From Terriglobia bacterium (GTDB lineage: Bacteria > Acidobacteriota > Terriglobia > Bryobacterales > Bryobacteraceae), in contig JAIQFN010000034.1 in NCBI GenBank assembly GCA_020073265.1, positions 1-64,000 on the forward strand: a stretch of DNA of 64,000 nucleotides, given 5' to 3'. Both the position numbers and the translations under genes were made by a program. This document shows, piece by piece, positions 9,541-63,619 of the stretch. The notes beneath the pieces were generated by a model. It was not told the origin of the DNA. It saw nothing but the letters and a program-made list of their open reading frames with translations, and did no database searches. Numbering within the stretch: position 1 is the first letter of the stretch; each line of letters opens with the position of its first letter.

Positions 9541-9564
9541 TATTGAGACAGCATACCTTATGCC

Positions 9565-9658: not shown

Positions 9659-9706
9659 GTTCACACCAGTGTGAACGCGGCACGCCCGAGTGCGTACGCC
9701 ACGTCA
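9659..9706 (+). repeat. REP2 double-hairpin repeat, copy b
   Basis: GTTCACACCAGTGTGAAC forms an 8-bp stem; it is followed by CGGCACGCCCGAGTGCGTAC and GCCACGTCA. The terminal TCA is the reverse complement of the TGA stop codon of the amidohydrolase gene (9704-9706), so the repeat ends exactly at that gene's 3' end. Confidence 0.8.
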
Positions 9707-10534: not shown

Positions 10535-10665
10535 CTGAAACTATTCTGTCATCCCCGCCATGAGCGGATCTAGTCTGGGAAACTGGAAGTGATGTTGCGA
10601 ATAGCCATCGTGGCTTGCGCGGTCCCTAGAGAAACCCGCCGCGTTTCTGCGCCGTCCCACTTCCC

Positions 10666-13068: not shown

Positions 13069-13078
13069 CCTGAATGTC

Positions 13079-15658: not shown

Positions 15659-15701
15659 ATCCGGATTCTCCCCGGCCGCGACCACGTGTCTTGGAGCCTC
15701 A

Positions 15702-16082: not shown

Positions 16083-16089
16083 CTAAGGA

Positions 16090-17334: not shown

Positions 17335-17353
17335 CAGTTGATTGTAACAGTGA

Positions 17354-46956: not shown

Positions 46957-49338
46957 ATGCGCCACGGCTCGCGCGCGTTTGAGCTAAGCTTTCAGTACCG
47001 AACTTTGCTTGCCGAACGATCCGTCCTGGTCTTCGCCGTCTTCATCGCGCTGCTGGTTCTCGTGGCCGCGTACTTCAACGTGCGCAACGGAGATGTCGAT
47101 GAGTTGGGTCTCTACAACCCCAGCTACATGCTGGCGCATTACGGCAAGCTGACCTATCCGGCGTATAGGATATTCGACGCTCCGGTGATCGCGCACCCGC
47201 CGGTGCACGTGGGCTTGATCGGCCTGTTCGCGCGACTCGGGTTCACCTGGTACTACTCGGAAGCGACGCCGACCGTGCTGTTCTTTCTGCTGCTGATCGT
47301 CGCGATCGTGCGCGGGGCATTTCCGCCGGTGGTGAAACTGGGGCTGCTGTTCTCGATTGGTCTGCTGATGTTTCCCGGCGAATCGCTGGCTGTGTACTTC
47401 GGGACGCGCCCGGAGGGGCACGTGCACGCCGCGTGGCTGGCCGGACTGGTGTTGCTCGAATCCGGGCGGCTCGATAACTGGAATCGCGCGCAGCTTTTCG
47501 CCGGCGCATTTCTGCTGACCTGGGCTTCGGGCGTGCATTACTACGCGGCTCCTGCGCTTCTGGGCGCGGGCGTATACATGCTCTGGGCGGTGTTGAATCT
47601 GGGCTGGAGCGAGGCCAAGCCGCGGGTGCTGGCTGTGTGCGCGGGCGGCTGCCTGTTTGGCGTGCCGTATCTTGCTTTCTATGTCGTGCCGTATTTCAAG
47701 CAGATCCTGGATGAGATCGGTGGCGCTCAGCCGGGCCAAGGGGTTGCGGCGGCGGTGCGCGACCAACTGGATCTGTACAAGGCGTTGGGGAGCAGCGCGG
47801 CGATTCCGGAACTGGTCCGAGCTCCGGCCAGGCTGGGGATTCCGCTGGTCGTGTTGTCGACCGCGATACTTGCCGCCGTGCGATCCACACGGGGCATCGC
47901 GCTGGCGGCGCTGCCATTGCTGTTGGCGGTCTACGTCTCGTTCCACAAACAGGCTACCTACACGATCCATGAGATAGCGTTGTACGCGGCGGCGGCGGTC
48001 ATCGCAATTCTGATGGCCGGCGATTGGATTGCGAGGCGTGCCGGACTGGGGCGCGCCTTCCTGCCGGCGGCGGCGGTCTGCCTGGGCGTCTATCTGGTGA
48101 CAGGCAACGCGGCGCTGCGAGGGGCGGCCATCACCTGGAAGCCGCAAGTTTACGAGGCCGACGTCGCGCGCGCGGCCGAACGCGAGATCCTGGGTCCGCA
48201 CGCGCGGGTGGCATCCCGAACCGGCGCCTGGTATTCATCCGGCGCCGAGCATTGGCATCCCGTCATGGACGATCTGCTGCGCCTCAACGCTCCGTACGTT
48301 CCGGCGGCGTACTTCGCTGATTTCGATGCGATCGCCGAGTATCCGCATTTCAGCGACTTCACTCAGAACCCCGAGCACACCACGATTTCTTCCTGGTATG
48401 CGGACGGCACCCTGAAGCTGCGCGGGTTTTTTTTCGCCGAGACCAACTACCAACTCCGGCAAGTGCTGCTGAGTGCGAAAGCGCCCCCGCAGGTGCAGGG
48501 CTACGTGGAGCGCGAAGGGAAGCTGTACCGGTTCGAGCAGGATGCGGCGGGGGATTCGCACGTGCTATCGGCGGTGTGTCCCTCATCGCCGCAAGTTTAT
48601 GCGCCGGGAGCGTTTCCGATCCTGCTGAATCTTCCGCGGGGAACTCCACCCGAGCGCGCCGTGCTGGTTACCGTGCTCACACCGCTCGATTCCGTCGAGC
48701 CGGCCGGCTGGATGAAGCGCTCGTGCCGGCAGATCGCGGAGGTTCGAGGATCGCTTCGCGCCGCCGACCTGGACGCCTTGGTTCGATCCTTGCGGCGCGA
48801 GGACACGACCATCCATTTCTATCGCAATGTGGAACAGGTGCCGGGCTTCATCGGCGCGGGCTTGCCGCCGGCGCTGGCTCCGCCGGCCAGTGCGGTGGTG
48901 GCGCTCGGTGGCGTGCTGGATCTTTCCAAGATCCAGACTGCCGATCCGCGCGCGCGCTTCGAACGCGGGCGGCCGATCCGCATCACCACGTCCCAGGGTC
49001 TCGGGCAATTCGCGGTGCACATCCCCATCGCTCACGGCGAAGCGATCAGCATGCCGTGCTGGGTTCAGTTGCGGCTGAAAGTGACGGCGGGCCGCATCGG
49101 GTTCGCTGCCTGGGACCTCAAGCTAGGCGTTCTGAAGCGCACGCCCGTCGCGCTGCTGAAGGGCCCGGAGCCGGTGAATATCGTTCTGGCCATGCCCAAC
49201 CTGCGCGGTGCGTCTTACATCACGATCATCAACGCGAGCGACGATGGCGCGTCGCAAGTCGAACTTTACGATGCCGGGATACTGGTGAGCCAGGCGGACT
49301 GGGAACGCAACCAGGCGGCGCTGGCCAAGCTGCGCTAG
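46957..49338 (+). CDS. Multi-TM GT-C-like glycosyltransferase with C-terminal beta domain
   Basis: This 793-residue protein has a first TM at about 20-40 (ERSVLVFAVFIALLVLVAAY), then DVDELGLYNPSYMLAHYGKL with an acidic motif of the type that binds lipid-phosphate sugars in ArnT/PMT-like enzymes, and about ten more TM segments to about residue 400. The soluble part includes a region (about 400-660) and a beta-rich C-terminal domain (668-778, RPIRITTSQGLGQFAVHIPI). That domain recurs in 58167-60377 and 60386-62308. The start ATG 46957 keeps the protein free of the upstream repeat-like GC-rich stretch. Its stop overlaps the convergent gene by four bases (CTAG). It probably transfers a sugar from a polyprenyl carrier. 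Confidence 0.85.
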   Translation: MRHGSRAFELSFQYRTLLAERSVLVFAVFIALLVLVAAYFNVRNGDVDELGLYNPSYMLAHYGKLTYPAYRIFDAPVIAHPPVHVGLIGLFARLGFTWYYSEATPTVLFFLLLIVAIVRGAFPPVVKLGLLFSIGLLMFPGESLAVYFGTRPEGHVHAAWLAGLVLLESGRLDNWNRAQLFAGAFLLTWASGVHYYAAPALLGAGVYMLWAVLNLGWSEAKPRVLAVCAGGCLFGVPYLAFYVVPYFKQILDEIGGAQPGQGVAAAVRDQLDLYKALGSSAAIPELVRAPARLGIPLVVLSTAILAAVRSTRGIALAALPLLLAVYVSFHKQATYTIHEIALYAAAAVIAILMAGDWIARRAGLGRAFLPAAAVCLGVYLVTGNAALRGAAITWKPQVYEADVARAAEREILGPHARVASRTGAWYSSGAEHWHPVMDDLLRLNAPYVPAAYFADFDAIAEYPHFSDFTQNPEHTTISSWYADGTLKLRGFFFAETNYQLRQVLLSAKAPPQVQGYVEREGKLYRFEQDAAGDSHVLSAVCPSSPQVYAPGAFPILLNLPRGTPPERAVLVTVLTPLDSVEPAGWMKRSCRQIAEVRGSLRAADLDALVRSLRREDTTIHFYRNVEQVPGFIGAGLPPALAPPASAVVALGGVLDLSKIQTADPRARFERGRPIRITTSQGLGQFAVHIPIAHGEAISMPCWVQLRLKVTAGRIGFAAWDLKLGVLKRTPVALLKGPEPVNIVLAMPNLRGASYITIINASDDGASQVELYDAGILVSQADWERNQAALAKLR

Positions 49339-50648
49339 CGGCGCCAGGCCGGCTCGTCCACCAGGATCTTCTTGCTCAATGCGGCGAAGTTGTATTCCGA
49401 GCAAACGCGGTTCTGCAAGTAGCGCGCGACATCGCGGCGCTTGCGCGGGTTGCCGAGAAACTCCTCCACCTTGGCGTTGAGCTCGTCCAGGTTGCGGTAC
49501 ATCACCTCGTTCGCGGCGTCGCCCATGCCCTGGTGGAAGTCTTCTTTGTAATCGAAGAGGATGAAGCCGCCGCAGGCGAAGCAGCCCATGATCTTGGGCG
49601 AGACGCCGGTGTTGTAGCCCAGGTTGACGACGTCCACGATGATGTCGCTGTTCATGAACAGCAGTGGCAGCTCGTTGAAATAATCGAGGCATTTGCGGAA
49701 GCGCATGTGGTACTGGTCGCGCAACCGGGCGACGCTGCCCGGCTCGACGAAGTTGCCGTAGAAATCGAAGTCGCGTTTGAGCGCGGTCAGCACGCCCAGC
49801 CGGGCGTTGGTGTTGCCCATGGTCTCGATTTCCTCGTGCATGAATCCCCAGAAGAAGGAGTGGTTTGCATCCAGGCGCAGGCGCTTGCGCGTGGGTGCGT
49901 CGAGGGCGTCGATCTCGGAGGTGATCAGGTCCCAAAGGCAATCGGTGAGGCGGGCTTTCTTGGCGGCCTGGACGCGCGCTTCGAGAGCCGCGAGCTCCGG
50001 CTCCTGGCGGAACGGCAGAGTGTCGGTGGCCTTCAGATACACATTGCCGGCGAAGGCCATGCGAGTCCGGAAGGCGCTGGGCGATGGCGTACGGTATCCG
50101 TAGCGGACGTAGTTCGGATAGGCGGGCTGGAGGAAGAAGCGCACATTGCTTCGGTCGACGATACCGAGCTTGTCGAGCGCGGCGATGTGGCCGCGGTCGG
50201 GCGAATAGTGCAGGTAGAGCGGGTGGCTCAGGACGCTCTTGATTCTGCGGATGCAGCCGCCGGTGGATTCCTTGGGGTCCAGAGGGAGCGGCCCGACAAT
50301 CTGCTGGGGAAGCTGCAGCAGGCCGTGGTCCCAGAGCATCAAGGTGGGGATCTGCAGGACATCGGTGAAGATATTTTGCCGGTCCGGCGTCGCGCAGAGC
50401 AGAATGTAGAGCGCGTTGGGAAGCGAAATGGCGGCATCGGGCCGGAAGGATTTCAGCGCGTCGATGGCGCTTCGGATGTAGATGTCGTTCTGGGTGGTGA
50501 ATCCGCCCACGTGCAGGTCGAAGACCTCGGCGCCCAGCCGGCGCAACTCCTCGGTCATCTCGATGGCGAAGTTGTAGTCGATTCCGCCGAACCAATCGTG
50601 CGGCGGCAAAGTCGCCACCAGGCGGAGGCCTTCCAGCGGTTGGCTCAT
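49335..50648 (-). CDS. CgeB-like glycosyltransferase
   Basis: This 437-residue protein has two Rossmann-like domains of the GT-B type. The N-terminal half has RLVATLPPHDWFGGIDYNFA and AISLPNALYILLCATPDRQN, with LWDHGLLQLPQQIVGPLPL. The C-terminal half has FYGNFVEPGSVARLRDQYHM, then VVNLGYNTGVSPKIMGCFAC and GGFILFDYKEDFHQG, typical of Glyco_trans_1_2/CgeB proteins. It is probably a cytoplasmic sugar transferase. ATG 50648 overlaps the stop of the preceding gene by four bases (ATGA). Confidence 0.88.
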   Translation of the reverse strand: MSQPLEGLRLVATLPPHDWFGGIDYNFAIEMTEELRRLGAEVFDLHVGGFTTQNDIYIRSAIDALKSFRPDAAISLPNALYILLCATPDRQNIFTDVLQIPTLMLWDHGLLQLPQQIVGPLPLDPKESTGGCIRRIKSVLSHPLYLHYSPDRGHIAALDKLGIVDRSNVRFFLQPAYPNYVRYGYRTPSPSAFRTRMAFAGNVYLKATDTLPFRQEPELAALEARVQAAKKARLTDCLWDLITSEIDALDAPTRKRLRLDANHSFFWGFMHEEIETMGNTNARLGVLTALKRDFDFYGNFVEPGSVARLRDQYHMRFRKCLDYFNELPLLFMNSDIIVDVVNLGYNTGVSPKIMGCFACGGFILFDYKEDFHQGMGDAANEVMYRNLDELNAKVEEFLGNPRKRRDVARYLQNRVCSEYNFAALSKKILVDEPAWRR

Positions 50649-53600
50649 CGTTCCTGCCATTTCTTGAGGGCGACTTTGGCGACGATGCGGCCTACGTGAA
50701 CGGCGAAGAACGGCAGGCCCAGGATGCGTCGGATCATGGGGCGCTTGGCGGGGGGCTGCGGGCCCAGCAGCGGGATTTCGATGTGGGCGCTTCCGATGAC
50801 GGCGCGCGCCAGGCGGATTCCGAGCGGCCGAGGGTCATCGGACCAGCCGAGCGATGCAGCGGGTTGGACATCGGGGATCTCGAAGGTCAGGGTGAGTTCC
50901 GAAGAGCCGGCCAGGACGGCCGCCGGGATGTTGATGGAACGCTTGTGCGCCTCCCGATCGGGGCCGAGCGTCCAATCTCCCACTACGTGGCCATTGGCTT
51001 TCACGCGGACTGGCAGGCGCGGCGAGCTTCCACCCAGGTTGCAGTCGGAAATGACGAAGGCGGCGGGGAGGTCGCCGGCGGGCGCGGTCTCGAAGGACAC
51101 TTTCATGCTGGACTCCGCGCCGATGGTCCAGGATCCGTAGGGGTCGGGCGCAGTCCATTGGGAGCCCAGGCCGTCGCCGATGAAGGTGATCGAATCGCCG
51201 CCCTCGGCAAAATCGATCAGCGCGCCCAGGCGATAGCGCAGGGAGCCGGCCGGCCTGAGCTCCAGCTTGGTGAAACGGAAGCCGAGCGGGCGTTGGTCGG
51301 ACGAGTTCCAGCCGAGTTGCTTGGGCGAGCGCGGCGCGTCGATGCGGAAGGTGAATCTGGCAGGCCGCTGAGATTCGAGGATGTGCGCCGGAACGAGAAT
51401 CCTGCGCTGCTCGGTGAAGCGCGTCGGGATGGTCCAGGTGGCCAGGTCGAGGCCGTTGACGGCGACGGTGACGCCGATCTCGGATTGCTCGGCTGAGACC
51501 GCGGCGTCGGTGATGGTGAACACGGCGTTGATCAGGCCGTCGATCGGTTCGGGCACCAGGACGTCCAGGCCGGCTTCGGGACCGAGCGTCCAGGCGCCCA
51601 GATCGTCGGGATTGGTCCAGCATTCGTCGAGGTGATAGAGGCCGGCGCCCTGGCGGGTAAAATCGATGGCTTGGTTGAGCGGGCAGGCCAGGCGATCCGA
51701 TCCGGTGAAAAGAATCTGCTGGACCTTGATGCTCAGCTCGCGGGGGTCTTCGCTGACCGGCTGCTGCCCTTTGGCGATCAAAATCTGCTGGGCCGATTGC
51801 GGATCTTGCGGCCGGAGTTCGAGGCGGCACGAAGTTTTTCCCGCCATCAGCCGAAGCGGCAAGACCACCTTGCAGCGGGAAATCTCGTAGCGCATGTAGA
51901 TGGTCCAGCGCGCGAGTTGTTCGCCTTCGAAGAAGACCTTAAGGTGGATGGGATGGTCGTCCAGATTCAGGAAGCCTTCGGTGATGCGGAGGTAGGCCAC
52001 CAGATCGCCGGTCAGGGACGGATCGGGTTGGAACACGATGGCCGCGCGATAGCCGTCGATCCAGGAGCCGGTGTAGTCCATCGCGCCCCAGTCGCCGTCT
52101 TTGTAGCGGGCCGAGCGGCCTTGCGAGGTCAGGTCCAGCGCGTGTCCCGGCGCGACGACGGCGAGCGAGTGATCGGCCTCGTCGTAGGCGAAGTAGGAGC
52201 GCATCAGGTCTTCGTTGTACTTCCAGGGCGATCCTTTGTAGCGGCGATCCTCGCCCACTCGGGCGCGGCCTTTGCGGATATGCACGGGATAAGGCGTCTC
52301 GGTGGCGAGCATGAACTGGCCGATGAAGCGCTGGAAGACGTAGTGCACCGCGTTGAGCGCGAGAAAATCCGCGTAGCGTCCGCCGGAACGCTGCAGGCGG
52401 TCGCATTGTTCCGAGCAAGCTTCCAGTGACCTTGCGACGGCGCCCAGGCTGTAGCGCAGCTCGCGCGGCCAATCGGTAACGCGGGCCACCTGGCCGAGAT
52501 TCAGGCCGGTCTGGTCGAGGCCGAAATCGAAGATGATCAGGTCGTAGTTGGCCGCCAGGTGGCGCTCGAGCGATTCATCGCCCGCTGGCTGGGGATCGGC
52601 CGGAAGCGTGCCGGCGGGTGCGCTGCCGCCCGAGAGCAACTCCGCGACATAGTGCAAAGGGCGGGTGAATTGCATCCTGGCGGCGCACTCGGCGATCAGT
52701 TCGAGCATCCGGGGATTGTTGCCTGCATAGACAAAACGCGCATCCGGAGGGTACACGGTGAAGTGCGCTGCGACGTACGGCAGGGCATGCTCGGGATAGT
52801 AGAAGACGAAATTCCGGGCGTCGTTGGCGTCGGTGGGATAGGGGGCCTGCTGCGGTCCTCCCAAAGTCTCCGTGAGCGCGCAAAGGTACCGCGCCGCCGG
52901 GCCATTCGAGAAATCCAGCTCTTCCACCGGTTCGTTGGGCGCTCCCCAGGTGTCTTTCTGGTGGTGCGCAACGGCCTCCTCCATGTCCCAGACGAACTGC
53001 TGCAGATTGTTTTCCAGCTTGATGTCGGTTTGATGCAGGGGCGTGGGGACGCGGGTGTGATCGCAGTGATAGCCCTTGACCAGATGCGCCAGGCTCTCGG
53101 TGCGATTACCGAAGTACAGGCACAGGCGCTTGCACATGTTGGAATCGGCGTGCCAGCCATGCGTCATGCGCTCATCGAAGCCGCAGATATCGAACAGCGT
53201 CTGGCGCGGCATCAATTGGAAGTCGCCCGGAGAATCGAAGCGCATATAGGGAACGCGCAACGCCACTTCGTGCAGGTGCAGCCGGGGACCCAGGTCCTCG
53301 CACAGGCGGATGATTTCTTGCGGATCGCTGCGAGGGAACGATTCCCAGACCGGCTCGGGCACTTCGAAGCGCGGGGCGATGTATTGGCCGTCGGGGAGAT
53401 CGCGAACCGCGTCACCCAGACTGGAGATGCTCTTGTCCAGGACGAAGACCATGTCGGTGTTGGTGGTCAGAATCCAGCGGTTTCTGGGGTTCGATCTGCG
53501 GATGGCGACGTTGCGGGTGTGCGGCTCGGTGGCGAACAGATGAGTGTGCCCGACCATGCGCCAGTACAGTTGAGGGCGCATGCGGAAGACGCGCAGGACG

Positions 53601-53800
53601 GACTTGGCTTTGGGCGTCAGCGTGTCGTAGATGGCCTCGATGAAGGTGGGTAGTTCGTTGGAGGTGTTGCAATCGACGAACAGGATCTCGTCGTCGGGGT
53701 CGCGGAGCACCTCCGCCATGCAGTTGAAACTGATGGCGGCGCGCTTGGGGAGGTTGTAGCCGTGCGAATCGTTGCGGCCGTAGAGGACGATGGAGATCAT
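50645..53800 (-). CDS. GT-A-like glycosyltransferase with three C-terminal beta modules
   Basis: This 1051-residue protein begins with a GT-A domain (about 1-270): MISIVLYGRNDSHGYNLPKR, DDEILFVDCNTSNELPTF and TTNTDMVFVL (DxD-like acidic site), then CGFDERMTHGWHADSNMCKR. A middle region (about 270-550) has a Rossmann-like part (LAANYDLIIFDFGLDQTGLN). The C-terminal 500 residues hold three tandem beta modules (about 553-710, 711-858, 859-1005), each with a GxWT motif (YTGSWIDGYR, LGAWTLGPEAG, YGSWTIGAESS) and, in the second and third, a closing LGW..D.RPLGxR signature. The stop and start are coupled to both neighbours by ATGA overlaps. Confidence 0.85.
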   Translation of the reverse strand: MISIVLYGRNDSHGYNLPKRAAISFNCMAEVLRDPDDEILFVDCNTSNELPTFIEAIYDTLTPKAKSVLRVFRMRPQLYWRMVGHTHLFATEPHTRNVAIRRSNPRNRWILTTNTDMVFVLDKSISSLGDAVRDLPDGQYIAPRFEVPEPVWESFPRSDPQEIIRLCEDLGPRLHLHEVALRVPYMRFDSPGDFQLMPRQTLFDICGFDERMTHGWHADSNMCKRLCLYFGNRTESLAHLVKGYHCDHTRVPTPLHQTDIKLENNLQQFVWDMEEAVAHHQKDTWGAPNEPVEELDFSNGPAARYLCALTETLGGPQQAPYPTDANDARNFVFYYPEHALPYVAAHFTVYPPDARFVYAGNNPRMLELIAECAARMQFTRPLHYVAELLSGGSAPAGTLPADPQPAGDESLERHLAANYDLIIFDFGLDQTGLNLGQVARVTDWPRELRYSLGAVARSLEACSEQCDRLQRSGGRYADFLALNAVHYVFQRFIGQFMLATETPYPVHIRKGRARVGEDRRYKGSPWKYNEDLMRSYFAYDEADHSLAVVAPGHALDLTSQGRSARYKDGDWGAMDYTGSWIDGYRAAIVFQPDPSLTGDLVAYLRITEGFLNLDDHPIHLKVFFEGEQLARWTIYMRYEISRCKVVLPLRLMAGKTSCRLELRPQDPQSAQQILIAKGQQPVSEDPRELSIKVQQILFTGSDRLACPLNQAIDFTRQGAGLYHLDECWTNPDDLGAWTLGPEAGLDVLVPEPIDGLINAVFTITDAAVSAEQSEIGVTVAVNGLDLATWTIPTRFTEQRRILVPAHILESQRPARFTFRIDAPRSPKQLGWNSSDQRPLGFRFTKLELRPAGSLRYRLGALIDFAEGGDSITFIGDGLGSQWTAPDPYGSWTIGAESSMKVSFETAPAGDLPAAFVISDCNLGGSSPRLPVRVKANGHVVGDWTLGPDREAHKRSINIPAAVLAGSSELTLTFEIPDVQPAASLGWSDDPRPLGIRLARAVIGSAHIEIPLLGPQPPAKRPMIRRILGLPFFAVHVGRIVAKVALKKWQER

Positions 53801-56142
53801 GCCGGCAGCACCGTTTCCTTCAAGTCGAATTCGGCCAGGCCCCAGTTGTGGTGATTGAAGAGCATGGGCGAATTGAGGCGGTTCATCTGCGCGGCCCAGA
53901 CCAGCACCTCTTCGTTGTCGACGAACGAGAGTCCGCGGGCGCGGATGCGCTCGAACAGCCTGGCCTGGCCTTCGGGCGTCCAGCCGGAGCCGGTGGCGTG
54001 CTCGATGTGGTAGATGCGCATGGGGTCGGCGAGCATTTGCTCGCGCGCGCCGCCGTGATGCGCGGCGATGCACAGGATAGAATCCAGGTTCATCGAGAAC
54101 AGGTCGAACTCGGGATAACCGCGCAGGTCGCACCAGTGCTCGCGGGCCATGAGCGTGAAGTCGCCGCAGGCGTTGGTGTGGACGAAGGCGGCGTTGTGAT
54201 CGCCTGGGGTTTCGTTCCAGTCGCAACCGTAGGCCCGCAAGGGACCGCTGGCGGTGAGTTCCAGGACGTGCGTGCGGCCGGGATCGAGCGCGGCGTCCAG
54301 ACGGTGGACTGCGCGGTGGCCGGCTTGAGCCGCCGCCAGGGACTGGCCGTTCGCGTCGCGAATCTCGAAGTTGACTGCGGGATCGGCTTCCAGGTCGATG
54401 AACAACGGCCGGGCTTCTCCGGCTGGAGCGCGCACCACCAATTCGGCGGGACCCGAGGTGAGCATGGAATCCGATTCGGGATCCCAGCGCCAGCCCGCGC
54501 CCCAGGGTTGCGACAGGACCGCGGCCATAGCGCTGGCCCGCGAGCGAGGGGTCCAGCCGCACCAGAATACTTTCAGCTCGGGTGGGCCCTGAGAACCGGT
54601 ATCGGTGGCGTCGCGCAGGCCGAGCCTTAGGATCTGGGTGCGGCCGGCAGTGCGCTGGACGGGAATGCGCAAGAAAGTGAGTGACGCGATTTGTTGCCGC
54701 GCGATGGTGCACCCGGCGGAGTCGAGCAACGCGACCTCTACGGGACGGCCCGCGGGTTCTACTTGCAGTCCCAGCTCGGCTGAGCTTGTCGCGGAGGCGG
54801 CTACGATGAACTCGGCGCCGTCGCGCGCGCGGCGGAACGATTCTCCGCGATAGTCTTCCAGCGGCTGCCAGGCGGCACCCGGAGCGAGGCCTGCTCCGGA
54901 CGGGAAAATATCTTCGCCCGGTGGCGTGGTGGCATGAAACGACCAGCGCCGCTTGAGCGCGGAGAACGAGTGGCGCAGCATGCCCACGAATCCGCGATAG
55001 TCGATGTACATGCGCAGCCAGCGCTGCAGGCGCGGCGAGACGGGGACGGTGAGGCGCACCAGGCGTCCGCCTTTGGCCAGCTTGTCGATGAGATGCTGCA
55101 GGGCGAACCAAGCGGCGACGATGAAGTTACGGCTTCCGATCGGTTGCAGGGCCGCGGACCCTGTCCCGCCCGCGCCCAGTTCCCAAGTGAATCGAAACGC
55201 GCGGAAGTTCAGGATGCGTGGGTCGAGCTCGGTGGGAAAGCCGCCATGATGAACGCGGAACCATAGCCGCGCGGGCAAGGGCGCCGCGAGAGGCAGACGC
55301 AGCCGGCTTCGTCGAGCGACGTTCACGTGCGCCAGTACCTGGTAGCCTTCGCGGATCACCTCCAGGTCGAGCGCGGCGTTGCCGGTGCCTGGTCCCGGCT
55401 CGAGTTCCAGCAGCAACGCCGAAACTCGCGGCGGTGGATTATCGAGCAGCAGTTCGGCGTATTGGCCGGCCCAGCGGAACGGCTCGTTGGCGGTGTAGCG
55501 CTCCACCGGAAGCCAGCCCTTGCCGAACAGGAGGCCGGAATCGGGCGCGGCGATGTCGCCGGCGTTCAAGACTGGCCGTCCCTCCGGCGACACGTTGTAG
55601 GTTCCCTCGCGCACGTTGACGCGGATCAGATGCGTGCGGCAGTAAGCCAGCTGGTCTTCGAGCGGCGCGCCGACGGGGACGTCGCTCATGGCGTCATGCC
55701 GGTCGATGCGGTACATCCGGCCTGGCTCGAGACGCTGCTGGGCCAGGAACTCGGCCAGTTCGTCGGAGAACAGGATGTCGATGTTGGTGGCCAGCGCAAA
55801 GCGGCCGCGCGCCCGGCGCAGGCCCACGTTCTTAGCGAGCATCTGATAGAGCGGCAGCGCATCGGCATGCGCAAAACGGCGATGCAGTTCCGCGGGCACC
55901 TCGATAACACGGACCTGGCAGGGTCCGAAATCCGTTGGCCACCGCAACGCCTCGGCCAAGCGTGGGCGGTCCGCCGGCGGGTTCCATTCCACGAGGATCA
56001 GCTCGGAGGGAATCCCGTGGCGCCGCGCTTGCGCGATCCAACCCGCGGTGAAGGCTTGCATACGGTGGAGCAGGTTGCCGCCATGATCGTCGTTGCGGGC
56101 CGTCACGACTAGGGAAAGGTAAGGGGCTCCGCCGCCGGACAT
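53797..56142 (-). CDS. Glycosyltransferase family 2 protein with large beta insert
   Basis: This 781-residue protein carries a split GT-A enzyme. The N-terminal part (about 8-235) has YLSLVVTARNDDHGGNLLHR, SELILVEWNPPADRPRLAEA, LAKNVGLRRARGRFALATN and the acidic NIDILF (about 118). Residues about 240-640 are beta-rich (for example RSRLRLPLAAPLPARLWFRV). The second part of the transferase follows (about 650-781): HTNACGDFTLMAREHW, LRGYPEFDLFSMNLDS, MRIYHIEHATGSGWTPEG. ATG 56142 shares one base with the stop of the methyltransferase; the ATGA at the other end couples it to the next gene. Confidence 0.87.
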   Translation of the reverse strand: MSGGGAPYLSLVVTARNDDHGGNLLHRMQAFTAGWIAQARRHGIPSELILVEWNPPADRPRLAEALRWPTDFGPCQVRVIEVPAELHRRFAHADALPLYQMLAKNVGLRRARGRFALATNIDILFSDELAEFLAQQRLEPGRMYRIDRHDAMSDVPVGAPLEDQLAYCRTHLIRVNVREGTYNVSPEGRPVLNAGDIAAPDSGLLFGKGWLPVERYTANEPFRWAGQYAELLLDNPPPRVSALLLELEPGPGTGNAALDLEVIREGYQVLAHVNVARRSRLRLPLAAPLPARLWFRVHHGGFPTELDPRILNFRAFRFTWELGAGGTGSAALQPIGSRNFIVAAWFALQHLIDKLAKGGRLVRLTVPVSPRLQRWLRMYIDYRGFVGMLRHSFSALKRRWSFHATTPPGEDIFPSGAGLAPGAAWQPLEDYRGESFRRARDGAEFIVAASATSSAELGLQVEPAGRPVEVALLDSAGCTIARQQIASLTFLRIPVQRTAGRTQILRLGLRDATDTGSQGPPELKVFWCGWTPRSRASAMAAVLSQPWGAGWRWDPESDSMLTSGPAELVVRAPAGEARPLFIDLEADPAVNFEIRDANGQSLAAAQAGHRAVHRLDAALDPGRTHVLELTASGPLRAYGCDWNETPGDHNAAFVHTNACGDFTLMAREHWCDLRGYPEFDLFSMNLDSILCIAAHHGGAREQMLADPMRIYHIEHATGSGWTPEGQARLFERIRARGLSFVDNEEVLVWAAQMNRLNSPMLFNHHNWGLAEFDLKETVLPA

Positions 56143-56987
56143 CACTTCGGCGTGGCCGTCAGACACAGATGCCAACCAAAGGCCCGCTCGAGAGCGCGAA
56201 AGAGGAACTTAGGCATCCAGCGGAAATACCAGACCACTTTGTATTGATACTGGACGTATTCCGGAATGCTGTAGGGAAAAATATGGTCCACCATCACATC
56301 GGTGACGCGCAGGCCATGCTTCTCCAGCAACCGCCGCCCGCCGGACCGCGAGTAGCTGTAGGTTACCGGGCAGCCCTCCTCGGCCTCCGAGTATTCCGCG
56401 ACCAGCCGATCCAGCTTCCAGAACCGTCCCTTGCCGTAGGTCAGCAGAATCCACAAAACTTTCCAGGATCGCCGGTTGTACACCATGATTTTCACGGTGC
56501 TGGACGGGGCCAAATACTTGCGGATCTCCTCGAGCACGCTTTCCGGATTGGGCGTGTGATGAATGACGCCGAAGGAATACACCAGATCGTAGGGTTCCAC
56601 CGGCACCGATTCGCTCAGCTTTTCGGCGTTGGCCTGGATGAAGCGCACTCGCTCTTCGAGACCGAAGACTTTAGCGCGCTGCCGCGCCACTTCCAGCGAT
56701 TTCTCCGTGAGGTCGACGGCCGTGACTTGCGCGCCGGCGGCCGCGAAATTGATGGTATCGGTGCCGATGCCGCAACCGATTTCCAGAACTTTCTTGCCTT
56801 TCCACTTTTCAAACTCGGCAAATCCCGGGATGTGCGGCTCCACCAGGTACTTGCGGGCTTCCACCTCTTCGAAGTACTCGCGCGATCCCACCGGTTGAGG
56901 AGAATGCCGGATGTTGCAGGGACGCGAGTTCCAGTACTCGCTGACCTTGGCGAGCGGGGTGTCGCGAAAAGATGGTGAGCTGCTCAT
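56142..56987 (-). CDS. Class I SAM-dependent methyltransferase
   Basis: This 281-residue protein has motif I VLEIGCGIGTDTINFAAAGA (about 67-87), acidic VTAVDLTEKSLEVARQRA, and YDLVYSFGVIHHTPNPESVL before the C-terminal lid. The beginning, VSEYWNSRPCNIRHSPQPVG and REYFEEVEARKYLVEPHIP, is typical of Methyltransf_11-like enzymes in polysaccharide loci that methylate sugars or their precursors. It is the first gene of a four-gene overlapping run down to 49335. Confidence 0.9.
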   Translation of the reverse strand: MSSSPSFRDTPLAKVSEYWNSRPCNIRHSPQPVGSREYFEEVEARKYLVEPHIPGFAEFEKWKGKKVLEIGCGIGTDTINFAAAGAQVTAVDLTEKSLEVARQRAKVFGLEERVRFIQANAEKLSESVPVEPYDLVYSFGVIHHTPNPESVLEEIRKYLAPSSTVKIMVYNRRSWKVLWILLTYGKGRFWKLDRLVAEYSEAEEGCPVTYSYSRSGGRRLLEKHGLRVTDVMVDHIFPYSIPEYVQYQYKVVWYFRWMPKFLFRALERAFGWHLCLTATPK

Positions 56988-57084
56988 GCTTCGGCTGGCG
57001 CGGGTATTAACTTAAGATTATAACCGCAGGCGGCGTCGCGAACAATGCGCGCGACGGCCACACTGGGTGGGCCGCCGGCGTCCT

Positions 57085-57999
57085 TCAAAGCCTCGGATTC
57101 ACCCAACTCTGCACGCCGTTTTCAAAAGCGATGGTTCCCCAGGGCGTCTCGCTGGTGGAGAACAGCGAATAATCGCGCAGGCAGCGCCAGCCGTGGGCCG
57201 AGAGCAGTTGGCGCAGTTCGTCCTCGATCTCCTTGGCATGCGTGCCGATGTGCAGGCGTTTGACCTTGGCATCCAGCTCTTCAATATTCGACCGGACGGC
57301 CGGCAGTTCCTGGCCTTCGATGTCCATGTCGATGAGATCCACCAGGTTCAAGTCCTTCAGCAGGCCGGCCAGCGTTACGCCGGGTATGCGGATGGATCGC
57401 CAGCCGCTCTTGTGACGCCGGACCGGGAACCCGCAGTATTCGCCATCCGGCTCGGACTCGCCGGAGAGGTCGTAGTCCTTGGCCAGAGACTGTCCATACC
57501 AGTCGTCCGGGCTGCGATCCCAGGGGCCGCCGCGCGGTCCGCCGATGTAAAACAGCACGTCACCCGGCGAGTCGCTGATGGCGGCGTGGATCAGGCAATG
57601 CTGGCTGGCGTCGATTTGGTTGTCCTGGAAATGCAGGCCCATCCATTGGAAAACCACCGGCTCGGCTTCGACGGCGATCAGCCGGTAAGGCAACTGATGG
57701 TTGAATTGCTTGAGTGCGTGCGCCGCGCGAACCGCCCAGCGTCCGAAGCCGGCGCCCAGGTCGATCATGGTGTAAAACCCGCGGGCTGCGACCACCGATT
57801 CCAGCACATCGATCCACTCGAGATACTCTTCGTTGAACATCGGGTAGGACGTTTCCAGCAGCGTGCCCTCCGGGTAGGTGTACAGCCCGGCGATGAACTG
57901 GCTGCGGGTTTTGGTCCCGAGGAAATCGTACCCATAGCCGGCCGGGACCACGCCGGAGAACGGCTGAAAGCGGGAAAACACTTCGTGGTGAGCTGGCAT
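57085..57999 (-). CDS. FkbM-family methyltransferase
   Basis: This 304-residue protein has motif I YTMIDLGAGFGRWAVRAAHA (about 77-96) and the FkbM mark LVDLIDMDIEGQELPAVRSN (about 225-245), with LHIGTHAKEIEDELRQLLSA after it. FkbM enzymes O-methylate sugars and other hydroxyls. I place the start at ATG 57999; a longer frame to 58284 covers the promoter region of the divergent gene at 58167. It is 85 bases upstream of the other methyltransferase gene's start (56987). Confidence 0.87.
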   Translation of the reverse strand: MPAHHEVFSRFQPFSGVVPAGYGYDFLGTKTRSQFIAGLYTYPEGTLLETSYPMFNEEYLEWIDVLESVVAARGFYTMIDLGAGFGRWAVRAAHALKQFNHQLPYRLIAVEAEPVVFQWMGLHFQDNQIDASQHCLIHAAISDSPGDVLFYIGGPRGGPWDRSPDDWYGQSLAKDYDLSGESEPDGEYCGFPVRRHKSGWRSIRIPGVTLAGLLKDLNLVDLIDMDIEGQELPAVRSNIEELDAKVKRLHIGTHAKEIEDELRQLLSAHGWRCLRDYSLFSTSETPWGTIAFENGVQSWVNPRL

Positions 58000-58166
58000 T
58001 ATCAGGAGTAAAGGAAGGCCTTCAGGTGCAGTATAACGTCCTTCGAGGACCGGATCAAACGTCGCGGCTGGAACTGGAACTGGGCGAGACCGAATCCGGC
58101 TAAACTGGTTATGGCGAAACCAGGATCTTCCCGCTTCGGCTTTACGCTGTCGCCGGCTCGTGGTTG

Positions 58167-60377
58167 ATGGCAAAACAACGAAAAACCGGGCCGAATGCGA
58201 CATCGCAACCTGGAGACAGATCGCCGGTTTCCCCGGCACAGACACTGGAACCACCAGGCGCTCGCGAAGGTCCGCCGCATGCACCGGCGCGCTTGTGGCC
58301 GTACTTGGCAGCGGTCCTGCTGCTGCCAGTCATCGTGCTCTGGCACCGCGACAATGCGCTCTACACGCCGCCCTGGTACGCCGATCCGTGGTTCTATCTG
58401 GGATATTTCCGCAACCTGGTTGAATACAAGAGCGACTTGTTCGACGGCAGCTACTACGGCAGCCGGCTGACGTGGATCCTCCCAGGTTGGCTGATTCATT
58501 CGTTGTTCCGACCGGTAATCGCGAATGCCATTCTGCACCTGACCGTTCAATCAACCGCCGCGCTTTCGTTTTTCTCGATTCTGCGGCTGACAACCGGGGC
58601 GCGAAGCGCTTTCCTGGCGACGCTGGTCTTCTCGGTCAACCCGTGGCTGTGGGCCGCCACCGGATGGGACTATCCAGACGGCGCCGGGATCGCCTACTGT
58701 TTACTGGCGATGGCGTTGCTGACGCGAGCCGCGACGGGGGCCGCCCGGAAACGCAGCCTTCTTCTGGCTGGCGGCGCAATTGCCGGAATGGCATACACAC
58801 ATGTTTTCCTGGCGACCTTTACGCCGCTGCTGTTGCTGTACTACTCCGGGTTGGTGTGGCTGTGGCAGCGCGCGCCCTCAAGAAGTTCCATCTTCGACTT
58901 GGGCGTCTGGGCGGGACTTGGATTCGGAATCGTAACGCTGGCACTGGGGGTCGTCAACCACCGGCTGGACAGCCATTTCTGGTTCTACGGTCCATCGATG
59001 GTGCGAGCGTTGCAGATGGCCAAGGACTTTCAGTTCGTCAGGTCTATTTGGGTGGATCACGGGCTGGCGCCATGGTTGTGGCCCGGAGTCGGCGGGGCCA
59101 TCACTGCCTTGGTCGCGTTGCTGGCCGGCGCGAGAAGAGCGGCGACGGAGCGCTCCAGGGCAGCTCTCTTGTTTTCCGCACAGCTTCTGCTGGCTCTCGC
59201 CTACATGGCTTTCTTGCAGAGCCGGGGGACCACCGTTCTGGCCCACCATCCCTACGCCAGCTACCTGCTGCCCTTCGTGTTTCTGGTGATGGGCGCTACG
59301 TTCTGGCCGGCCGCCGAGGGAACGAGCCTGCGAATTTACCTGGCAATCTGCTGTGTCGCGGCGGTGGCTTTCGGCGTACTTTGGTACAACCCTTTCAGTG
59401 CTCTGGTGGCCGCCTCTCCAGGCGCGCAGAGAGGAACTCTGGTTCTCAGCGCGGGTATCCTGGCAGCGGCGCTGGTGTTGCGGCGGCGTACGGCCGGGAC
59501 CATGCTCGCGGTCACCGGCTTTGTCGTGCTCACTTCGGTCCAGCTCGGCCAGACGGTACACTTTCAAGGGACCGAGCTGCATGGAAGCCGGCAGCAATAC
59601 GAGCGCTTCATGCATCTGCGCGAACGAATCGAGTCGGTCCGCAAGCGCCGGACGCCACTGTTTTGGTTCGACGCGAAAGAGGTCAATCGAAATGAATACA
59701 TTGGCGTGAGTTCATTTTATTTGGCGGAGTTCAGCCAGTTGGGCACTGGTTTTCCCGGCGGATGCGATGGGCCGATGGATACCGGATCGGTGATTGTGGT
59801 CCTCTCCCAGCAGGAGCACACCCCGGAGTTGGCGCGTGCGGCTCTCGCGAAGTGCTGGGGGCCATTGGGAATCCGTCCCGTGGTGGAAGCCGTGGAGGAG
59901 GTTGAGGGCGCCGCCCGGCCCTACACCCTCGCCATGCTCCGGCCTGAATCCCAGGCTTCCCCGGGGACTTCGCCGGACGGCCTGTTGCAAACCATCGCTC
60001 TCGAGCGGGTGCAGTTGGGCGACAAGAATGCTTCACTTCAGCGAGTCCCGGAAGGACTGATGGTGACCACCATACCAGGCCCCGGCGCCTTCGCGGGCAG
60101 GGTGCCGCTGGACTGGGACGCCATTGGCCGGACACGGCTGGCCGTGCATGTGCGGGCCAGGGGATTGCGCGGGAAAGTGGGATTCGGAATTCTGCGGTCC
60201 GACAACCAGGCGTTCCTGCAAGAACACGCCGTTCGGCCCTCCCCCACGATGGTGGACCTGGTTCTGCCGCTGCCCTCGCCGGCGGGCGCCGGGGATCTGA
60301 TCATCAGCAACCTGTCCGCTAGTGGCGCTGTCTCCCAGGCGATCGTCGAGAAGATCGAAATCTGGAAAATGCCCTGA
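58167..60377 (+). CDS. Multi-TM GT-C-like glycosyltransferase with C-terminal beta domain
   Basis: This 736-residue protein has a TM at about 45-60 (LWPYLAAVLLLPVIVLW), then WYADPWFYLGYFRNLVEYKS with an acidic motif in the first external loop, about ten more TM segments to about residue 465, and a soluble C-terminal part. Residues 623-736 (LMVTTIPGPGAFAGRVPLDW and onward to ISNLSASGAVSQAIVEKIEI) are the beta-rich domain that recurs in 46957-49338 and 60386-62308. ATG 58167 is preferred over the adjacent TTG. It probably moves sugar units from polyprenyl phosphate onto a surface glycan or lipid. It is divergent from the FkbM gene. Confidence 0.85.
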   Translation: MAKQRKTGPNATSQPGDRSPVSPAQTLEPPGAREGPPHAPARLWPYLAAVLLLPVIVLWHRDNALYTPPWYADPWFYLGYFRNLVEYKSDLFDGSYYGSRLTWILPGWLIHSLFRPVIANAILHLTVQSTAALSFFSILRLTTGARSAFLATLVFSVNPWLWAATGWDYPDGAGIAYCLLAMALLTRAATGAARKRSLLLAGGAIAGMAYTHVFLATFTPLLLLYYSGLVWLWQRAPSRSSIFDLGVWAGLGFGIVTLALGVVNHRLDSHFWFYGPSMVRALQMAKDFQFVRSIWVDHGLAPWLWPGVGGAITALVALLAGARRAATERSRAALLFSAQLLLALAYMAFLQSRGTTVLAHHPYASYLLPFVFLVMGATFWPAAEGTSLRIYLAICCVAAVAFGVLWYNPFSALVAASPGAQRGTLVLSAGILAAALVLRRRTAGTMLAVTGFVVLTSVQLGQTVHFQGTELHGSRQQYERFMHLRERIESVRKRRTPLFWFDAKEVNRNEYIGVSSFYLAEFSQLGTGFPGGCDGPMDTGSVIVVLSQQEHTPELARAALAKCWGPLGIRPVVEAVEEVEGAARPYTLAMLRPESQASPGTSPDGLLQTIALERVQLGDKNASLQRVPEGLMVTTIPGPGAFAGRVPLDWDAIGRTRLAVHVRARGLRGKVGFGILRSDNQAFLQEHAVRPSPTMVDLVLPLPSPAGAGDLIISNLSASGAVSQAIVEKIEIWKMP

Positions 60378-60385
60378 GCGGTTGC

Positions 60386-62308
60386 TCACTCTCGCCGGGG
60401 ACCCAACATCAGCGCGACATCCTGAATCAGCATCCCGGAAGGCACGTTGCCGTCGGCGGCGTTGCGGACGATCAGGGCTCCGGCGCGCTCGGGAAAGAGG
60501 ATGGGAACGTAAATGTCGATCAGTTCGGGCGAAGGATCGACGCCCTTTTCGATTTGAAATTCACTCGCGCCTTGATCCAGGATTCCCAGAGTCACCCGCC
60601 CATTCAGCACGCGGCCCCGTAGATACAGGAACCCGGCGCCGGCCGAACGCTCGGGCATGCGGAGAGGAAAGCCCAGGGCGAAAGCCCCCTGGCCGGCGGG
60701 AGCAACTAACTTCAGCGGAGGGCCTTTTTGGACCGAAGCATTGTTGTGGACTTGCAGCGTTTCGAGCGACACAACGCCATCCACTCGCGTGAACGGACCG
60801 CGCGGATCTTCACAACGAATGCTCGCCGGGAAGGCGGTCAGGGAGGGAGCGGGCGGCAGGGGATGCGAACCGGCCGGGCGCGGCAACTCACCACTTTCGA
60901 TCTTGCGGCGGACCAGCGGCGCGAGTTGCTGAAAGACGATCCAGGCCTTCAGCCGTTCTCCGGTCTCGGTCATATGGATGGCGTCCACGAAAAGATCCGG
61001 ATCCTCGGGGACATTGGCTGCGACGTCCAGGAAAGGAATGCCGCGCGAGGCGGCATAGCGACGGAAGACGCGGTTCTGGAAATTCGCCAACCGGCGAATA
61101 TCGGCATAGCGCAACGGCCACAGGACGGTATTCAACTGCTCGTAGATGAACTTGTGGCGCGTGCGCGACAGAGCGATGCGGTCGTTTGAATACCACTCGA
61201 AGGAACACAGCACCAGTTCCCCACCGGCGGTTTTCAAACTGCTTCGGATGGCGTCCAGATCGTGGACGATGCGCGGCAACTGCAGCGGCAGCTTGGGATC
61301 GTCGACGTTGGGGTCCTGTTTGTCGACGCCGTGCGGCCACATCAGCCGGTACGCGGGCTTGCGGGGTTCGCCGACGGCGCTGAAGCCGTTGACGGCCCGG
61401 TCAATCAGATCGCCGATCGCCAGGTGAGCGCGGATCGCGGCCGGCACGACATGCCGGGCGATGGGATCGTGCGCGCCGATCTCAACCCGCGGCGCGATGT
61501 GGGGCGATACCAGGAGGTTGGCCGAGGGGAACTGATTGGCGCCCTCGTAGTAGACCGCCAGGTCCGGATCGAGCGGCAGCAGTTCATCGCGCACGATGGC
61601 TGCGATGTCCTCCGAATTGATGCCTTCGCGTCCGGCGTTGAGCATTTCAAAGCGCACATCCAGATGGTTGGCCGCGGCGTAGCGGTTCAGCCAGAAGCTG
61701 ACGTATTCCGGATAAGAGAACGGAAAGTGGTGGAAGCCAACCGTGGTGGAAGCGCCGATGAAAGCGATGCGAATCGTCCGGGGCGGTTTCGCCATGCCGA
61801 TGGCCGGCCCGCGCAGGCCGAACTCGTTGGTGACCAACCCCGCGACTCCCGTGGTATTGGGCGGGAAGCGAAAGATGGGATGGCTCGCCGGCGCCGGCGG
61901 ATCGAAAGCCAGCACATTGTCGGGGTAGTTCCTAAAAAGACTGGTGGGCGCACAGCGGGTGCCCTCGACGTAGTAGCGGTTCCAGATGTAGTCGGCTTGG
62001 TCGGGGAACAGCCCCCGCTGCTGGTAGTCCTTGTAACGCGCTGCCCGGTCCGCGCCCACTGGCGCCCGGTTGGACAGCGGCGGAGGATCCTCGGTGAACC
62101 ATCGGCGATCGGTTCCGGGCGCCGCCGGGAGCCGCTCGACATAGGGCATTGCCTCCGGCGTCGTGACCGGCTTCGCCTCCACCGGGCCGGGAACCGCGGC
62201 TGACTCCGTAGAGCGGCTCGGGCGGTAGCCGGTAAACAAGCGCAGCGCGGCTTCGCATAGCAACAGGCCAAGCAACAGGGATGCCAGGACCAGCAGGAAA
62301 GATTTCAT
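60386..62308 (-). CDS. Membrane-anchored SGNH-type hydrolase with C-terminal beta domain
   Basis: This 640-residue protein has one N-terminal TM (about 3-22, LLVLASLLLGLLLCEAALRL). The SGNH fold has block I IAFIGASTTVGFHHF with Ser187, FEMLNAGREGINSEDIAAIV (block II-like), DLAVYYEGANQFPSANL with Gly/Asn, and the DxxH dyad Asp442/His445 in FVDAIHMTETGERL. The C-terminal domain (523-636, LKLVAPAGQGAFALGFPL) is shared with two glycosyltransferases nearby. SGNH proteins in glycan loci add or remove acetyl groups. ATG 62308 overlaps the broken paralogue by four bases (ATGA). Substrate is unknown. Confidence 0.85.
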   Translation of the reverse strand: MKSFLLVLASLLLGLLLCEAALRLFTGYRPSRSTESAAVPGPVEAKPVTTPEAMPYVERLPAAPGTDRRWFTEDPPPLSNRAPVGADRAARYKDYQQRGLFPDQADYIWNRYYVEGTRCAPTSLFRNYPDNVLAFDPPAPASHPIFRFPPNTTGVAGLVTNEFGLRGPAIGMAKPPRTIRIAFIGASTTVGFHHFPFSYPEYVSFWLNRYAAANHLDVRFEMLNAGREGINSEDIAAIVRDELLPLDPDLAVYYEGANQFPSANLLVSPHIAPRVEIGAHDPIARHVVPAAIRAHLAIGDLIDRAVNGFSAVGEPRKPAYRLMWPHGVDKQDPNVDDPKLPLQLPRIVHDLDAIRSSLKTAGGELVLCSFEWYSNDRIALSRTRHKFIYEQLNTVLWPLRYADIRRLANFQNRVFRRYAASRGIPFLDVAANVPEDPDLFVDAIHMTETGERLKAWIVFQQLAPLVRRKIESGELPRPAGSHPLPPAPSLTAFPASIRCEDPRGPFTRVDGVVSLETLQVHNNASVQKGPPLKLVAPAGQGAFALGFPLRMPERSAGAGFLYLRGRVLNGRVTLGILDQGASEFQIEKGVDPSPELIDIYVPILFPERAGALIVRNAADGNVPSGMLIQDVALMLGPRRE

Positions 62309-63619
62309 CGCGAGCTTCGGGCTGTCGCGCCGTCGCAGCGCACACTCATCTCGGAAGCCGACAGCGACGGAGGCGGCCGAAGAGCGTGAGAACCGGCGGG
62401 GCGCGGCAGTTGGCCGCCTTGGATTTGTTTGCGGATCAAAGGAACCAACTGTTCGAACACGATCCAGGCCTTGACGCGCTCGCCGGTGTCGGTCATATGA
62501 ATGGCGTCGGTGAACAGATTGGGATCCTGCGGCAGGGCCGAAGCGATATCCAGGAAGGGGATGCCGCGCGCTTCCGCATAGCGCTGGTACACGCGGTTCT
62601 GGAAGTCGGCCATGCGCCGGATCTCGGAGTAGCGCAGCGGCCACATCACCGTGTTCAGTTGTTTGTAGATGAACGCGTGGCGCGTGGCGGAGAGCGGCAA
62701 CCCGTCCTTGGCCAGCCACTCGAAGGAGCACAGCGCCAGCCCGCCTCCGATGGATTGCATGCCGGCGCGGATCGAATCCAGATCCTTGACGATCCTGGTC
62801 AGGTGTAACGGCAGCTTGGGGCTGTCGATATTCGGATTCTGCTCGCTGACGCCGGCCGGCCAGATCAGCACGTGCAGCGGTTTGCGCGGCTCCGAGAGCG
62901 AGCTGAATCCGTTGAGCACGCGGTCCAGCAGATTCGCGAGCGCGAGATGAGCGCGGATGGCTTCCGGGACGCGATGCGTGGCAACCGGATCGCGCGGGTT
63001 GATTTCTTGGCGCGGTGTGCCGCGAGGGAAGGCCATGCCGGGAGCGTCGAATTGGTTGGCGCCTTCGTAATAAACCGCCAGGTCCGGATCGAGCGGAAGC
63101 AGTTCATCGCGCGCGATCGCGACGAAATCCTGCGAGTTTAGTCCTTCGCGTCCGGCGTTCAAGGCCTCGAAATGCACGTCGTAATGGCTGGATTCGGCGA
63201 AGCGGTTCAGCCAATAGCCGACGCGCTCGGGAAACGAAAACGGATAGTTGGCAGCGCTCGCGTTCCACGTACTTCCGGTTCCAGATGTAGTCCGCCTGCG
63301 GGCCATACAGGCCGCGCCGCTCGAAGTCCTTGTAGCGCGCGATGCGTTCCGGGCTGACCGGCGTACGATTCGGAAGCGGCGGCGGATCCTCGCTGAACCA
63401 GCGCCGGTCCGTGCCGGGTTCGGCGGGGAGCTGCTGGATGTAGCGCGCGGCTTCGCTGACCTCGAGCGGTTTGTCGGCGGTGACGGCTGGAGGAGCGGCC
63501 GGTTCCGCAGCGCGATGGGCGCCGTAGCCGGTGAACAATCGCAGGCCCGCTTCACACGCCAGCAGTCCGACCAAAGTGGAACCGATTACCGCCAGGATGG
63601 GTTTCGCTTCGATCTTCAA
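62305..63619 (-). pseudogene. SGNH-type hydrolase paralogue disrupted by deletion and frameshift
   Basis: Read from a TTG at 63619 (TTGA overlap with the gene upstream), the first frame codes for a TM segment ([20 protein letters not shown]) and the paralogue's N-terminal part down to DYIWNRKYVERERC, near base 63253. The rest continues in another frame from NYPFSFPERVGYWLNRF through FTDAIHMTDTG to the end. Against the neighbour (60386-62308), about 73-75 residues are missing, including block I with the catalytic serine (FIGASTTVG), and the frame shifts. The C-terminal beta domain is also missing. No single open frame can give an active hydrolase. A read or assembly error is an alternative. 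Confidence 0.8.

Follow-up and report, generated by a model that had tools for sequence, protein, structure and literature searches.

Three proteins encoded in the window analysed here, the 64,000-nucleotide stretch at positions 1 to 64,000 of contig JAIQFN010000034.1 (Terriglobia bacterium, assembly GCA_020073265.1), carry the same C-terminal module, and their last ~128 residues are, by sequence comparison, homologous. The three are P1 and P2, two multi-transmembrane (multi-TM) glycosyltransferase-like proteins, and P3, which resembles the SGNH/GDSL family. The best explanation is a portable module, similar to carbohydrate-binding modules (CBMs), that would bind the glycan under construction and so tether glycan-assembly enzymes to it; we give this reading a probability of roughly 0.6. 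P1 (46957–49338, plus strand) is a GT-C-like protein of 793 aa in which eight hydrophobic segments are followed by a soluble C-terminal part of ~400 residues, and its module copy occupies residues 652–780 (48910–49296, plus strand). P2 (58167–60377, plus strand), also GT-C-like, has 736 aa, and its copy spans residues 609–736 (59991–60374, plus strand). P3 (60386–62308) is encoded on the minus strand, the plus strand containing stops over that interval; it has 640 aa with one N-terminal hydrophobic segment, and its copy covers residues 511–637 (60398–60778, minus strand).

BLASTP comparison of the full proteins linked P2 to P3 (E 4e-13, 32 % identity over 144 aa), P1 to P2 (E 9e-8, 27 % over 136 aa) and P1 to P3 (E 5e-5, 26 % over 78 aa), and a tblastn search of the whole genome with the P2 segment recovered P3 (1.1e-11), P1 (5.5e-5) and copies on a further contig, C99. 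A leave-genus-out profile was built from 26 copies from outside the genus, themselves traced by searches begun from the window's copies, and run against the 760 open reading frames (ORFs) of the loci in the window, on C99 and in G002, a genome of the same genus identified as the palsa_89 assembly through a contig common to both (Z = 20000). It gave E-values of 2.9e-20 for P3 (77.9 bits), 5.3e-19 for P2 (73.3 bits) and 4.2e-10 for P1 (44.2 bits); among 1000 shuffles of each segment the highest scores were 5.2, 5.8 and 6.1 bits, respectively. An 11-copy profile searched over the window's genome at E ≤ 0.1 reported six places, three in the window and three on C99, all of them the profile's own rows, and no seventh. 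An earlier reading made from the sequence alone (the sequence-only reading) had proposed that three proteins of a single locus share a module, and BLASTP, whole-genome tblastn and the leave-genus-out profile agree on this, with profile-level similarity among the three segments at E 4e-10 to 3e-20. The C-terminal placement was also right, but the length of 110–115 residues was not, as the module begins 12–16 residues earlier. The motifs listed in that reading are recognisable, though in P1 only loosely, and two stronger ones, T..[WG].[YF]A and V..G..G.G.L, were absent from the list.

That no named family exists for the module holds for the three collections searched. In Pfam, 0 of the 11 first copies had a match at E ≤ 1, and 25 copies gave one match only, to a thioesterase domain at E 0.016. 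With the 11 copies, NCBIfam and PHROGs each returned three families hit by one copy apiece, the best E-values being 0.023 and 0.042. Among the titles listed in literature searches there was no paper on the domain, though one may still be in print, and both the family and its host range appear to be new.

The module family is sparse and patchy in the genomes searched. These searches covered the window's phylum, Acidobacteriota, to which the Bryobacterales belong, and all counts include the window's own genome. The 11-copy profile found the module in 3 of 396 phylum genomes (E ≤ 1e-4), a 13-copy profile in 6 of 150 genomes of the order (E ≤ 1e-3), a 25-copy profile in 5 of 396 phylum genomes and 13 of 200 genomes of the family, and a single-sequence query in 3 of 61 relatives. 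These are lower bounds, because first-look candidates were scored in part (per genome, 10 in the phylum scans, 28 in the order scan and 21 in the family scan) and because G001, with no copy by the single-sequence query, yielded two in the family scan. A scan of genome contigs gave 187 pattern matches and one relative, the corresponding scan of viral contigs 35 pattern matches and no relative, and a phage search likewise found none. Plasmid searches with three of the first four queries found none; the fourth led to one Azospirillum record, and three Azospirillum copies used as plasmid queries found only themselves.

All but four of the 38 copies compared are from Acidobacteriota genomes, and those four share one locus on the Azospirillum brasilense plasmid NZ_CP059454.1, which was found with the copy of G518, a genome of the window's family, as query (E 1e-8). 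A profile not trained on the plasmid recovers the four at E 2e-24 to 5e-11, on SGNH-like, TPR, methyltransferase and radical-SAM proteins at record positions 8898–18818 (~10 kb; ~86 kb of the 181-kb record was scanned). Their surroundings are annotated as sugar dehydrogenases, epimerases, methyltransferases, glycosyltransferases and sugar-nucleotide enzymes, and further along lie glycosyltransferases together with an ABC transporter permease and ATPase. Several copies per locus are also present in the window (three), on C99 (three) and in G002 (four).

The 38 copies lie on 36 proteins, 29 of which were scanned with Pfam, the other seven being named by likeness or annotation. Left out of the 38 are three weak matches in G167 (L097 13903–15000, L098 and L099; E 8.5e-7 to 2e-4), two in G414 (L101) and the C-termini of two C99 proteins; a C54 match (L007, tblastn E 0.67) is likewise outside the counted copies, and one copy that was counted, L014 8407–8706, is shortened. 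The multi-TM hosts (P1-like, P2-like and C99 proteins) account for 10 copies, including one tandem pair and one on a separate short ORF, SGNH-like hosts for three and a TPR protein for one. Two copies are on FkbM proteins, four on other methyltransferases and one on a methyltransferase–FkbM fusion; radical-SAM proteins have four, one of them within a radical SAM–module–methyltransferase–FkbM fusion. Glycosyltransferases carry seven (four on GT1/GT2 fusions, three on GT1-type proteins), and four are inserted near the start of dehydrogenases of the ADH plus GFO_IDH_MocA type, usually preceding the region similar to the GroES-like ADH domain (L028:5247–8075, minus; L027:6711–10433, plus; L097:5598–8333, minus; L100:5896–8568, minus; Pfam was run on the L028 protein only). 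The position of the module within its host varies and may be N-terminal, C-terminal or internal. Host domains named by Pfam are Glyco_trans_1_2, Glycos_transf_2, FkbM, other methyltransferases, Radical_SAM and ADH with GFO_IDH_MocA; names below the Pfam cut-off are those of the three SGNH-like hosts, the C99 methyltransferase (18.4 bits against 27), one G534 radical-SAM host (19.5 against 29.5) and some of the Glyco_trans_1_2 matches. The sequence-only reading had asked whether a profile would find other glycan-locus proteins; the copies in other genomes are on glycosyltransferases, methyltransferases and radical-SAM proteins, among others, enzymes of sorts that occur in bacterial surface-glycan loci.

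Tandem copies were found in one C99 protein and in a 318-residue open frame of L088 (9119–10072, minus strand), which contains two of them and no Pfam domain and, with an N-terminus that by eye is lipobox-like, is likely to be a lipoprotein. In palsa_89, a 143-residue ORF behind a P2-like gene (L014:8329–8757, minus strand) carries another copy, truncated at its C-terminal end, which looks like a tandem copy that became detached. The C-termini of two multi-TM C99 proteins (L008:10890–13286 and 13294–15663, plus strand), compared with the module by hhalign, gave 76 % and 33 % and may be divergent copies. Adjoining the C99 cluster, two large proteins (L008:3–5706, plus strand) end in several near-identical repeats of ~90 residues (SSPAPGSTLSGASATFQWTAGSG...).

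Judged from the sequences, the module moves between hosts. The tree of the 38 copies has 35 inner branches, 10 of them well supported and 15 open, with three Azospirillum copies on long branches. Host type used as a label needs 21 changes on it, against a mean of 29.4 for shuffled labels (as low in 0 of 200), and therefore the copies partly follow their hosts. Well-supported pairs that cross host types are the C99 methyltransferase with FkbM of G565 (100/100), radical SAM of G534 with a G001 methyltransferase (96/93), and the Azospirillum SGNH-like protein with the GT1/GT2 group (96/91). Masking of the modules leaves radical-SAM proteins from G034, G534 and Azospirillum that are 46–62 % identical over 284–296 aligned residues. 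In this family, at 46–48 % identity outside the module, the module follows the radical-SAM domain in G034 and G534, both of the window's phylum, and precedes it in Azospirillum. G001 and G559 have methyltransferases that are 52.5 % identical, yet the modules on them belong to different branches (96/93 and 89/95). Two enzymes of the window that have module-bearing relatives are themselves without a module. The glycosyltransferase at 49338–50660 (minus strand; Glyco_trans_1_2, E 3.1e-11) is 30–32 % identical to proteins of L042, L045 and L046 up to near their module, and those proteins then continue into it. The FkbM methyltransferase at 57085–58284 (minus strand; Pfam E 2.1e-5) has a relative in G034 (31 % over 316 aa) with the module N-terminal of the enzyme.

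A simple hydrophobicity scan was applied to 21 proteins, the hosts of L048 and L088–L101 being left out. It detected eight hydrophobic segments in P1 and seven in P2, and in both proteins the module comes behind all of these segments. No segment was found in the C99 and G034 methyltransferase hosts, two G534 radical-SAM hosts and most glycosyltransferase hosts, and the single segments seen in two dehydrogenases and one glycosyltransferase lie within enzyme domains and are likely to be spurious. By eye, the G001 methyltransferase (L092) seems to have an N-terminal hydrophobic segment. On this simple scan the module probably occurs on both sides of the membrane: it would be periplasmic in the window's proteins if their topology is as we infer, and cytoplasmic for a good part of the other hosts.

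AlphaFold models were obtained for the P2 domain (predicted local distance difference test score, pLDDT, 91.5; predicted template modelling score, pTM, 0.86) and the P1 domain (pLDDT 85.2, pTM 0.80). Both are beta-sandwiches of ten strands with a similar strand order, compared by order and not by superposition, and the two models are not independent because both rest on the same seven rows, namely the window's own three together with four taken from L029 (contig PMOK01000065.1, Bryobacterales bacterium palsa_89). Foldseek found 57 PDB matches to the P2 model at E ≤ 0.001, and CBMs make up most of the best 50 of these 57, which also include Cry proteins, an astacin zymogen and phage proteins. 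When Foldseek's own matches were re-examined with VIA-align, where rows within 1 Z count as tied and absence of a family (such as the Wzt domains) does not exclude it, the P2 model was closest to a porphyran CBM (8xmz; Z 12.9, root-mean-square deviation 2.5, 121 residues aligned), followed by CBM11 (Z 12.4; 2.9, 129), CBM29 (12.2; 2.7, 122), CBM86 (12.2; 2.9, 123), CBM22 (11.7) and CBM15 (11.6). For the P1 model the values were 12.3 for CBM29 (2.7, 124), 11.9 for CBM15 (2.7, 130), 11.7 for CBM86 (2.7, 124), 11.6 for CBM11 (3.4, 131), 11.6 for CBM22 and 10.5 for 8xmz. Identity between the models and the named CBM structures is 6–12 %. As is characteristic of CBMs, a discrete predicted beta-sandwich stands beside a carbohydrate-active catalytic domain, the catalytic assignment being weak for P1, P2 and P3.

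P1 has no Pfam match and P2 has a weak match to YfhO under the Pfam cut-off. Neither could be matched to a known GT-C family, whether through a Pfam family above its cut-off or, with profiles of both protein families searched against the PDB, at E ≤ 1. The earlier description of both as multi-TM and glycosyltransferase-like fits the hydrophobic segments counted by the simple scan, and from architecture we infer that they are putative GT-C glycosyltransferases. In all six P1-like proteins Asp48-Glu49, which follow the first hydrophobic segment, are invariant. P3 matches Lipase_GDSL_2 over 178 of 178 positions (E 4.2e-7) at 31.1 bits, just under the cut-off of 32.9, and the SGNH-like hosts of G002 and Azospirillum score 25.3 and 28.1 bits against the same family. 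A PDB sequence search with P3 gave three matches (E 0.36–0.69), one of them a GDSL-family protein.

CBMs have been described chiefly on enzymes that degrade polysaccharides and also on some glycan transporters and transferases. Their presence on glycan-building enzymes is known, and what is unusual here is the breadth of biosynthetic hosts. According to one account (PMC11127046), the CBM of GT136, a GT-C enzyme that is an O-antigen ribofuranosyltransferase, binds its O-antigen backbone, and EmbA-C and AftD also carry CBMs, that of EmbC being needed for efficient activity. As described there, these enzymes, with a sugar-binding domain on a multi-TM extracytoplasmic glycosyltransferase, have the overall layout of P1 and P2, whereas the present module family is also found on many TM-free proteins. 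Profiles of the module, P1 and P2 found no related PDB chain, and GT136 is likened to them by description. The carbohydrate-binding domain of Wzt, which recognises (certifies) capped O-antigen chains (PMC9445017), is like the module an appended domain, its host being an O-antigen-locus protein, and is a jelly-roll that reads the chain end (PMC9445017, PMC11231755); however, it is attached to an ABC nucleotide-binding domain, and its dimer is strand-exchanged (PMC9445017, PMC11231755). No ABC domain was found in the 29 of 36 module hosts scanned with Pfam, P1, P2 and P3 included, and the module did not match the Pfam Wzt families. The Klebsiella O7 methyltransferase–kinase terminator is described as having a CBM-like fold, there called immunoglobulin-like (PMC11231755), and by that description the terminator, too, is an O-polysaccharide-locus methyltransferase with a CBM-like domain (PMC11231755). 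CBM29, 11, 15, 22 and 86 have the predicted fold in common with the module (best VIA Z 11.6–12.4 over the two models), but the solved structures, 6–12 % identical to it, are from polysaccharide-degrading systems and the module is on glycan-building enzymes. The GlfT2 galactofuranosyltransferase (PDB 9nj1, 9dtp) also has a beta-sandwich on a bacterial glycan polymerase (VIA Z 9.9–10.8), though it is N-terminal in its host and 12–13 % identical to the module.

A glycan as ligand fits both the predicted CBM-like fold and the kinds of host. The module would bind the glycan being built, either a nascent chain, a repeat unit or a modified end, and would keep its host enzyme there, raising the local substrate concentration or sorting the chains to be acted on. 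For the modules of P1, P2 and P3 the place of action would be the periplasm and the target lipid-linked or polymerised glycan; those of the methyltransferase, radical-SAM, GT1/GT2 and dehydrogenase hosts would work mostly in the cytoplasm. Taken one step further, a single CBM-like family might serve as an exchangeable address label that directs varied enzymes on either side of the membrane to one glycan intermediate, a possible but distinctly tentative extension.

Several observations weigh against glycan tethering. A CBM-like beta-sandwich alone is no proof of function, and the fold is a common one; insecticidal Cry and Vip proteins, astacin-type proteases, a phage tail fibre and a complex I intermediate also appear in the Foldseek and VIA lists. 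When PDB chain sequences were searched by hmmsearch with two module profiles, at E-values up to 10, no CBM was found and CBM11, 15, 22, 29 and 86 showed no sequence-profile likeness; the searches matched a biofilm surface protein once (E 1.1) and PapK twice (E 0.12–0.14). The best-conserved tryptophan, at position 39 of the P2 model, is present in 24 of 37 copies and replaced by glycine in all three window copies (position 41 is tyrosine or phenylalanine in 34 of 38). The CBM of GT136 is itself reported to be seemingly disposable for catalysis (PMC11127046). The host bias towards glycan enzymes, set against no background, is an impression rather than a statistic. Finally, copies of the same genome are no more alike than chance, the genome label needing 28 changes on the tree against a shuffled mean of 29.5 (as low in 37 of 200), which speaks against the one common ligand that the sequence-only reading had suggested.

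The module might instead bind no sugar and serve for docking, holding the enzymes of a locus together or to a common scaffold in assembly-line fashion. Several hosts do occur within one locus, the hosts include a TPR protein, a type that commonly mediates contacts between proteins, and the position-39 tryptophan is lost in the window copies. However, the TM scan places hosts on either side of the membrane, so one docking partner could hardly serve them all; no conserved partner gene was noticed, though no systematic search for one was made, and the predicted fold is typical of sugar-binding modules. Docking is unlikely, and the shared docking partner offered earlier as an alternative to a common ligand has become less probable now that the module is seen on hosts with and without TM segments.

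Ranking behind docking, and in our view improbable, is a structural spacer: a stable, ligand-free beta-sandwich, spread by recombination, that props up or dimerises its host. Patchy presence on similar enzymes, such as the module-free glycosyltransferase and FkbM protein of the window, would agree with this, as would the variable placement (N-terminal, C-terminal or inserted) and the many conserved positions that are glycine, alanine, valine, threonine or proline, as expected for a fold rather than a site. Against it, the identified hosts are mostly of kinds typical of glycan loci, and there are tandem copies and a module-only likely lipoprotein with two copies, for which a prop role is hard to explain. 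That the three C-termini are unrelated beta domains, alike by chance or through beta-sandwich composition, might be entertained at pairwise identities of just 26–32 % but can be dismissed given the leave-genus-out E-values (4e-10 to 3e-20), shuffles that never exceeded 6.1 bits, and the same fold and strand order predicted in the P1 and P2 models, non-independent as these are.

Further genes lie between P1 and P2 and beyond P3. A large protein at 50648–53632 (minus strand), GT2-like by eye and without a Pfam match at E ≤ 0.1, ends in three C-terminal repeats of ~155 aa that look beta-rich, and a second protein that is GT2-like by eye (53797–56175, minus strand), in which the module was not found, has three beta-rich-looking stretches. 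The hhalign probability of these repeats and stretches to the module is at most 1.5 %, and they were left out as module copies. An S-adenosylmethionine (SAM) methyltransferase follows at 56142–56987 (minus strand; Methyltransf_31, E 6.7e-23), in which the module was likewise not found. A second SGNH-like gene (62305–63694, minus strand) is in tandem with P3 and ~51–60 % identical to it in the aligned parts. It is open only in two different frames, has no module, by eye seems to lack the stretch that holds the putative nucleophile motif in P3, and looks broken.

If glycan tethering is correct, a module shared by transferases, methyltransferases, radical-SAM enzymes, dehydrogenases and SGNH-like proteins would offer a way into the question of how enzymes that modify glycans locate the right chain, and, should the more tentative address-label idea also hold, the locus would form a functional line without its enzymes touching one another. 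The module could mark glycan loci in poorly annotated phyla, and the family could supply parts for binding tests.

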